This document shows positions 18,665 to 24,179 of a stretch of DNA of 37,638 bases, one piece after another. The notes under the pieces are model-generated. The model searched no databases. It was not told where the DNA came from and saw only the letters and a program-made list of their open reading frames with translations. The translations under genes were made by a program, and so were the position numbers. Origin of the DNA: Sedimentisphaerales bacterium. Lineage in GTDB: Bacteria > Planctomycetota > Phycisphaerae > Sedimentisphaerales > Anaerobacaceae. The DNA lies in NCBI GenBank assembly GCA_030611315.1, contig JAUWPZ010000019.1, forward strand, positions 1 to 37,638. Reading direction: 5' to 3'. Within the stretch, counting starts at the first letter, position 1, and each line of letters opens with the position of its first letter.

Positions 18665-20224
18665 TTATTTACCTATGCAGAAACGCTTGAATATATCTTC
18701 CAGTACCTGCTCGGCCACACATTGGGCCTGCTCGATATCGGAAATGCTCTGGTAAGCGGCCCGAAGCAGCATTGCAATAACCTCGCCGGAGCGAGTGTCT
18801 CCTGCCTTGAGTTCATTTATAGCTTCACTGACGTTCTCGATAGCCTCGGTAACTGCCTGCTTGTGCCGGGCGGTAAGCCCGATAGAATCCTGCGGAGACT
18901 CAGAAAATGGCAGTGCCCGGGTTTCGAAACTTGAGATTTGAGATTTGAAATTCAAGATTGTATCGATTTTCCCCCGTAGCAGGTCTAAACCGGCGGCGTT
19001 TTCTGATGAAGTTGCTATAAACTCAGCCCGGAAAAGTTCACTTAGCCGGACGAGGCGATTGGCCAACTCCTTTTCCGAGAGCAAATCGCTTTTCGTCGCC
19101 ACCAGTATCACCGCCGCCGCGGCACTACTGACTGGACTGCCATTTTGCGGTTCTTTGGCAAAATCCGGCCCCACTAAAGACCACAGAGAAATCTCTTCCG
19201 CCCACAGGCAGAGGTCTCGATTCCTCTGTCCTCTGTCTTCTGTCCTTTGTCCTTTGTCTTTTGCCGCGTCAACGCAAAACAGAACCACGCTGCTGTTCCT
19301 CAGCGCCTCGATTGCCGCCTGTTGCGCTAATTCATCGAGAACTGACTCATCCCTTGGGGCACGGGGCACGGGGCACGAGGGACGAGTTAATCCTGCGCAG
19401 TCGAACAGCACGCACCTGTTGTGGACCAGTGTTAATATGCCGGTCAGGACATCTCTGGTGGTTTTGCGCTGGCTGCTGACGATGCTCCTCTCATTGCCGA
19501 GCAGCCTGTTGAGCAGACTGCTCTTGCCTGCGTTTGGAGCGCCCGCAATCCCCACAGCCGGCAAATCGATTAACGACTCATAACTGATACTGCCCATCAG
19601 CAGTTGCTCAAGCTCCTGCTTTATCTCGGAAAGTCTTTCCACCGCCTCGGAGTCGCTTATAAATTCTATATCCTCATCGCTGAAATCCAGCCCCGCCTCG
19701 ATTAAACCGAGACAATCCATCATTTGCGAGCGTACTTTTGCCGTCGTTTCAGCCAATCGGCCGCTCAGAAGTTTTTCGGCCGCCGCCAATTGAAATCTGT
19801 TCGAGCTGACGATGATTTCGTTTACCGCTTCGGCCTGGGCCAGGTCAATTTTGCCGTTCAGGTACGCCCTCGCCGTAAATTCCCCGGGTCCGGCCATCCG
19901 AAGACCCATTTTCTGCAGCCTGGCCACTAAAGCCTCGGTAACCGCCCTGTTTGCATGGATGTGAATTTCAGCAAGCGTCTCGCCGGTGTAAGAATGAGGA
20001 GCCACAAACAGATACAGCTTCGCATCGACTCTCAACTCGTCATCGATAGTTACGCTGCCGCCGGCAATTTGAGATTTGAGATTTGAAATTTGAAATTTCA
20101 GATTTTGTGGCTCAAAAATCTGTTCACAGACGTCGATTGTCTCGGGCCCGCTTATACGAACGATTGCCCTTGCCCCCGAACTCGCAGAACTGACAGCCAC
20201 AATAGTATCGTTAAGGTCATACAT
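18665..20224 (-). CDS. mnmE: tRNA modification GTPase MnmE
   Basis: The product has 519 residues, about 60 longer than usual. It has an N-terminal formyl-THF-binding domain (GPGEFTARAYLNGKIDLAQA, 112-131), a G domain inserted in the helical domain with G1 GAPNAGKSS (228-236), G3 DCAG (275-278) and G4 TKSD (377-380), and the C-terminal FCIGK whose Cys is characteristic. With MnmG it makes the cmnm5/nm5 modification of wobble U34. The extra length comes from four 7-bp repeat tracts translated in frame: residues about 41-54, 281-291, 323-338 and 423-435. All are at loop positions, including the switch II region. It is the last gene of the operon metallophosphoesterase-yidC-mnmE. Its start is preceded by a long heptamer tract and no Shine-Dalgarno. 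Confidence 0.96.
   Translation of the reverse strand: MYDLNDTIVAVSSASSGARAIVRISGPETIDVCEQIFEPQNLKFQISNLKSQIAGGSVTIDDELRVDAKLYLFVAPHSYTGETLAEIHIHANRAVTEALVARLQKMGLRMAGPGEFTARAYLNGKIDLAQAEAVNEIIVSSNRFQLAAAEKLLSGRLAETTAKVRSQMMDCLGLIEAGLDFSDEDIEFISDSEAVERLSEIKQELEQLLMGSISYESLIDLPAVGIAGAPNAGKSSLLNRLLGNERSIVSSQRKTTRDVLTGILTLVHNRCVLFDCAGLTRPSCPVPRAPRDESVLDELAQQAAIEALRNSSVVLFCVDAAKDKGQRTEDRGQRNRDLCLWAEEISLWSLVGPDFAKEPQNGSPVSSAAAAVILVATKSDLLSEKELANRLVRLSELFRAEFIATSSENAAGLDLLRGKIDTILNFKSQISSFETRALPFSESPQDSIGLTARHKQAVTEAIENVSEAINELKAGDTRSGEVIAMLLRAAYQSISDIEQAQCVAEQVLEDIFKRFCIGK
18931..18958. repeat. Heptamer tract inside mnmE (1)
   Basis: Plus strand: TTGAGAT, TTGAGAT, TTGAAAT, TCAAGAT. Translated on the minus strand within ILNFKSQISSFE, between the G domain and the final helices. 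Confidence 0.85.
19223..19264. repeat. Heptamer tract inside mnmE (2)
   Basis: CCTCTGT, CCTCTGT, CTTCTGT, CCTTTGT, CCTTTGT, CTTTTGC. Translated on the minus strand as KDKGQRTEDRGQR, a 7-residue peptide period. Confidence 0.85.
19356..19383. repeat. Heptamer tract inside mnmE (3)
   Basis: GGGGCAC three times, then GAGGGAC. Translated as PSCPVPRAPRDE immediately after the G3 motif DCAG, that is, within the switch II loop. Confidence 0.8.
20071..20105. repeat. Heptamer tract inside mnmE (4)
   Basis: GAGATTT, GAGATTT, GAAATTT, GAAATTT, CAGATTT. Translated as NLKFQISNLKSQI (residues 41-53) in the N-terminal domain, with a 7-residue period. Confidence 0.85.
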
Positions 20225-23292: not shown

Positions 23293-23300
23293 GCCAAAAT

Positions 23301-23370
23301 ACGAAATACGAAATACGAAATACGAAATACGAAATACGAAATACGAAATACGAAATACGAAATACGAATA
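23301..23370. repeat. ACGAAAT heptamer array, ten units
   Basis: Nine perfect ACGAAAT units (23301-23363) and one ACGAATA (23364-23370). The A of the final unit is the A of the lptB ATG. It has no spacers, so it is not a CRISPR. Confidence 0.95.
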
Positions 23371-24125: not shown

Positions 24126-24179
24126 AATCTCAAATTGACGACACACGAGATACGAGATACGATTCACGAGATACGAGAA
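24126..24179. repeat. Heptamer tract filling the lptB-def gap
   Basis: After the lptB stop, AATCTCA, AATTGAC, GACACAC, GAGATAC, GAGATAC, GATTCAC, GAGATAC, GAGAAAT: eight units in register that end on the def ATG at 24180. The whole 54-bp gap is repeat. Confidence 0.85.

Follow-up and report, generated by a model that had tools for sequence, protein, structure and literature searches.

The window analysed here, a 37,638-nucleotide stretch of DNA from a member of one taxonomic family of the order Sedimentisphaerales (Planctomycetota), encodes an MnmE protein on its minus strand. The reading frame of this gene contains four tracts of tandem, imperfect heptanucleotide repeats, an additional insert of different character and the sequence motifs of the MnmE GTPases. 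In 5' to 3' order along the gene, these features are as follows.

18665..20224, minus strand: the whole mnmE coding sequence, 519 residues, recognized by its open reading frame, Pfam and NCBIfam profiles and a structural match
20067..20105, minus strand: tract 1, 39 nt, unit CTCAAAT/TTCAAAT (ATTTGAG on the plus strand), residues 40-53, QNLKFQISNLKSQI
19520..19543, minus strand: G1 motif GAPNAGKS, residues 228-235, from invariant alignment columns
19391..19402, minus strand: G3 motif DCAG, residues 275-278, from alignment and translation
19356..19386, minus strand: tract 2, 31 nt, unit GTGCCCC (GGGGCAC on the plus strand), residues 280-290, TRPSCPVPRAP
19222..19263, minus strand: tract 3, 42 nt, plus-strand units TCCTCTG/TCCTTTG, residues 321-335, AKDKGQRTEDRGQRN
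19115..19162, minus strand: non-heptameric insert of 16 residues, 355-370, FAKEPQNGSPVSSAAA, at a site that holds heptamer tracts in relatives G035, G100 and G098
19085..19096, minus strand: G4 motif TKSD, residues 377-380, with T replacing the N of NKxD as in many family relatives
18931..18952, minus strand: tract 4, 22 nt, unit CTCAAAT, residues 425-432, NFKSQISS
18668..18682, minus strand: C-terminal FCIGK, residues 515-519, from alignment and translation

Four heptanucleotide tracts in one mnmE gene

The Pfam models TrmE_N, MnmE_helical and MMR_HSR1 all score above their cut-offs in the 519-residue protein and occur in the order found in MnmE. The NCBIfam MnmE match (E 3.5e-74) falls below the model cut-off (250.8 bits versus 380, and 237.3 versus 252.6), which is an annotation threshold and not a defining trait. 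This shortfall is attributed, putatively, to the inserts together with lineage divergence. Canonical G3 and G4 motifs read DTAG and NKxD. The variants DCAG and TKSD of the window protein are found in family relatives too, and its G1, G2 and G3 regions are intact. An AlphaFold2 model (mean pLDDT 78.8) has MnmE crystal structures (3gei, 9hip and 1xzp) as its best structural matches. Domain order, G1, TTRD and the C-terminal FCIGK are common to this protein and the solved MnmE/TrmE GTPases (3GEI/3GEE, 3GEH, 1XZP, 9HIP), whereas the tract peptides, and TKSD in the place of NKxD, set it apart. The catalytic acidic residue of E. coli MnmE is Glu282, which is positioned by switch II (PMC2749940, PMC3153494), and an aspartate is catalytic in the related GTPase YqeH (PMC3153494). 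D297 of the window MnmE occupies the alignment column of this acidic position. The protein probably continues to function as MnmE despite its tracts.

A gene with four tracts and one more insert might be suspected of being a decaying pseudogene that gathers repeats. This is very improbable, since all 519 codons are open, the family motifs are present and the protein is 66-68% identical to full-length relatives. Furthermore, no second mnmE was found in the genome, making the window copy the only one found, and the genome also encodes MnmG, the partner of MnmE.

Tracts were detected by comparing the DNA with itself at a lag of seven nucleotides and applying a threshold. Ten period-7 tracts exceed this threshold in the whole window and none do in Markov shuffles, and the four in-frame tracts described by the sequence-only reading of this DNA are confirmed. 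Tandem Repeats Finder independently recovers three of the four, and the 22-nt tract 4 is the weakest. The same reading proposed that each tract yields a peptide with a period of seven residues. Such a period is clear in tracts 1 and 3 but not in tracts 2 and 4, because these are just 31 and 22 nt long.

As had been suggested, one of the tracts lies in switch II. Tract 2 comes just after G3 and precedes the acidic catalytic position. It thereby increases the distance between the catalytic acid and the G3 aspartate, which is 22 residues in the window MnmE and 12 in the aligned sequence of 9HIP. All four tracts are placed in loops. In the AlphaFold2 model, strands 37-39 and 51-60 of the N-terminal domain flank tract 1, and pLDDT drops below 50 at residues 283-289, 326-331, 353-367 and 432-443. 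These stretches correspond to tracts 2 and 3, the non-heptameric insert, and a linker or loop that starts in tract 4.

The excess length of the protein had been equated with the four tracts, a claim that holds for the first three. Tract 1 adds about 5 residues, tract 2 adds 9 relative to relatives, and tract 3 adds 12-16, but tract 4 contributes no net length in comparison with the closest relative, G003. Measured against a 464-column family core, the inserts of the window MnmE are QNLKF, RPSCPVPRA, GQRTEDRGQRNRDLCL, FAKEPQNGSPVSSAAA and ETRALP. Because the fourth of these is non-heptameric and the position of the fifth is filled in tract-free G003 as well, heptamers account for about 26-30 of the approximately 52 extra residues. 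The fourth insert alone makes up about 16. It was considered as another type of dispersed repeat and rejected, since it shows no period of seven and has no second copy in the genome. The proposal that the gene absorbed four length-adding insertions that explain the entire excess is not supported. G1, G3 and FCIGK are indeed in place, with G4 as TKSD.

Recurrent use of the same MnmE loops

Seventy mnmE genes from the family were read, and 69 full-length sequences were aligned. At least one period-7 tract is present in 22 of the 69, which carry 36 tracts in total, whereas codon shuffles of these genes predict 0.05. Other than 7, the only periods that occur in a scan from 4 to 24 nucleotides are 14 and 21. 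The mnmE genes from other families of Sedimentisphaerales lack period-7 tracts in all 17 cases.

All 36 tracts fall into five loop clusters, at residues 40-48, 265, 281-289, 328-367 and 424-442. On a tree of the core sequence, parsimony requires 6, 4, 4, 4 and 7 events at these sites, each either a gain or a loss, or about 25 in total. The loop that holds tract 4 bears other heptamer tracts in seven relatives, and different genera have different units at the same site. Alignment with relatives, initially 30 and then all 69 family members, shows that the tract peptides are not shared as conserved sequence. Conservation of these peptides in close relatives would have refuted the sequence-only reading, but the nearest relatives lack them.

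Clustering at five positions, one of them in the switch II region that positions catalytic Glu282 (PMC2749940, PMC3153494), could mean that selection maintains the peptides as functional elements of MnmE, for example ones that tune switch II or the interface with MnmG. This is highly improbable. The peptide sequence is unconserved at every site, tract presence varies even within genera and most family members lack tracts altogether. In addition, the same repeat words are found between genes and within unrelated enzymes.

Related genomes preserve some sites in both occupied and empty forms. An array of about 50 nt is present in switch II of G035 and G100, whereas G098, G099 and G101, whose DNA is 74-80% identical to that of the two carriers, retain a short native loop. 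These comparisons of tract sites cover mnmE. In G098, which is about 91% identical to G099, a heptamer-rich segment of 84 nt resembling one in G097 replaces approximately 30 native bases before G4. This change looks like a replacement or recombination rather than a plain insertion, and tract 4, which added no net length, may have a similar origin. The C-terminal linker holds an array in each of G023 and G094, which are 86% identical, but the unit is CGAGATA throughout one array and CGAGTAT/CGAGAAT throughout the other, which implies rapid turnover.

Repeats are prone to assembly error, and the source genome is a 221-contig assembly in a family represented mostly by fragmented metagenome assemblies. 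Nevertheless, an assembly or binning artefact is hardly credible. The reading frame is kept through four tracts, similar tracts occur in many independent assemblies, some with long contigs, and the siblings G035 and G100 share the same array. The set includes six family genomes assembled as a single contig. Their mnmE genes contain no tract above threshold, but two of these genomes, G001 and G011, carry period-7 tracts elsewhere.

The mnmE gene of G031 (L029) contains another non-heptameric insert before G3 that includes MGILPVIRNHGRDAHAT. The aspartyl-tRNA synthetase (AspRS) gene of G019 (L228:2577-2635) has an array of (TCGTCGC)n followed by (ACGGGTC)n. This array is very similar to the composite array in mnmE of G035 and G100, possibly a fold-back. 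One TAA was reported inside the matched AspRS frame of both G019 and G039 (L228 and L240).

Whether MnmE is a special target was also considered and rejected. Tracts occur in 22 of 69 mnmE genes versus 2 of 19 AspRS genes (p 0.08), and in the 16 genomes where both could be compared, the counts of 4 and 2 do not differ significantly.

Heptanucleotide arrays throughout the genome

The event described by the sequence-only reading is not peculiar to one gene, given its recurrence in mnmE and the presence of tracts in several other essential genes. In the source genome, tracts reside within the genes for AlaRS, an Ile/Val-type tRNA synthetase, GpsA, TruA and RsmB, and within a RecJ-like protein named by reading its sequence. 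In G007, the peptide NLKSQIS is found inside BirA-, PBP- and HypF-like proteins, also named by reading.

An 834-kb sample of the source genome contains 72 period-7 tracts, and the next most common periods are multiples of seven. Most of these tracts are intergenic. Open reading frames account for 83% of this sample, yet only 26 of the 72 tracts are inside them (p 1e-18).

Certain units are used repeatedly. The 72 tracts employ 44 distinct units, where 69.4 would be expected from random 7-mers, and these units share a weak consensus beyond that of shuffled sequences. Arrays of ATTTGAG, the unit of tracts 1 and 4, are present at about a dozen unlinked loci in the genome, with no matches for a control read in reverse, and in seven other family genomes. 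Flanks of these arrays are mostly unrelated. The tract 3 unit TCCTCTG also recurs elsewhere in the source genome and forms arrays in 14 of 89 family genomes. Repeat words recur between genera as well. Neither a target-site duplication nor a carrier element was seen at the tracts.

Local replication slippage offers one route by which such tracts could be born. Each would expand independently after a 7-mer had been duplicated by chance within a loop, seven nucleotides being favoured by the polymerase footprint. This origin is a serious possibility, though it has somewhat less than an even chance of being correct. It would account for the strict period with diverse units and for the homogenization of units within arrays, as seen in G023 versus G094. 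According to PMC4679880, heptanucleotide repeats also outnumber every other class of long simple repeats in most genomes. However, the same units appear at loci that are not linked and in different genera, and the reduced number of unique units and their weak consensus are not expected of chance duplications, although slippage biased toward certain words could still explain them. The reused units fit array copying and word-biased slippage alike.

Several other properties of the arrays were considered and set aside. A depletion of stop codons in the units, which might have indicated that they derive from coding sequence, is not significant when unique units are counted. Neighbouring arrays show no tendency to be inverted in the source genome, as fold-back elements would be; separately, some arrays of relatives resemble fold-backs. 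A single word does not serve as a phylum-wide marker, as the ACGAGAT triple is present in just 2 of 294 genomes.

The window contains other repeats of interest. An LptB-like ABC transporter gene, identified by reading its sequence, is preceded by ten perfect AAATACG copies (23297-23368), the last of which stops one base short of the ATG (23370). This array leaves no obvious Shine-Dalgarno sequence and is a candidate for variable copy number. In a peptide deformylase-like reading frame, another heptamer array (24138-24178) supplies the N-terminal extension TTHEIRDTIHEIR. A 45-bp coding repeat, CPSGECCDDGTCVSS, occupies positions 532-711 in a cysteine-rich reading frame of secreted type.

Interpretation and relation to known repeats

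The tracts are best understood, with a probability of roughly 0.75, as dispersed and fast-turning heptanucleotide arrays that are tolerated inside genes where they are in frame, free of stops and located in loops. Imperfect tandem arrays would arise and change at many loci throughout the genomes of this family, with a birth step that may combine copying of existing arrays with slippage-type expansion and contraction. The slippage origin discussed above concerns only this birth step and is compatible with a filter for permissive loops. An array inside a gene would persist only if the frame is kept, the coding strand lacks stops and the loop is flexible. Since seven is coprime to three, an array without stops on a given strand can be read through there in any frame, so that selection needs only a net length change that is a multiple of three. 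Selection most likely eliminates arrays everywhere except in loops, at the ends of genes and between genes, and the five permissive loops of MnmE have been hit over and over in the family. The peptides encoded by the tracts are, most likely, tolerated spacers with no dedicated function, and are probably neutral.

A more far-reaching proposal is that a dedicated process specific for seven nucleotides copies or writes the arrays. They would then be minimal selfish repeats that colonize, in frame, the loops of essential proteins and provide raw material for new loops. This is unlikely.

Tolerated arrays of this kind provide a natural series in which one enzyme either has or lacks loops derived from repeats, one of them in the switch II region of a GTPase, and with which the tolerance of G proteins for inserts can be measured. 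Even in coding sequence, which should favour multiples of three, the period here is exclusively seven. This makes an old puzzle, the dominance of heptamers among the long simple repeats of bacteria, open to testing through empty sites and sibling genomes.

Heptanucleotide arrays are an established kind of bacterial repeat that occurs mainly between genes. Long simple repeats of this type in bacteria were described by Mrazek et al. (2007), who proposed polymerase contact length as a link to the 7-nt period, as reported in PMC4679880 and PMC4692102. Known cases include the G-rich heptamers of Xanthomonas and Nostoc, TAACTGA in Beggiatoaceae and the heptanucleotides of Calothrix. The tracts studied here resemble these repeats in having a period of seven beyond chance, a dispersed distribution, variable copy number and a strong bias toward non-coding DNA. 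In the known cases described in detail, however, one word dominates the genome and arrays are mainly intergenic, whereas the genomes studied here combine dozens of words with arrays that are in frame in housekeeping genes at recurrent loop sites. A search of open-access literature yielded no paper describing heptamer tracts within the housekeeping genes of Planctomycetota.

The closest functional counterparts are the Rickettsia palindromic elements, which are elements of about 150 bp that belong to defined families (Ogata et al. 2000, 2002; reviewed in PMC10969869). They, too, are dispersed, translated in frame within unrelated conserved genes and apparently compatible with protein structure. 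In contrast, the tracts described here are tandem 7-mers of 20-79 nt, mostly non-palindromic and well short of about 150 bp. This family stands out for how many words it uses, for arrays that occupy housekeeping genes in frame and for returning repeatedly to the same loops of MnmE.
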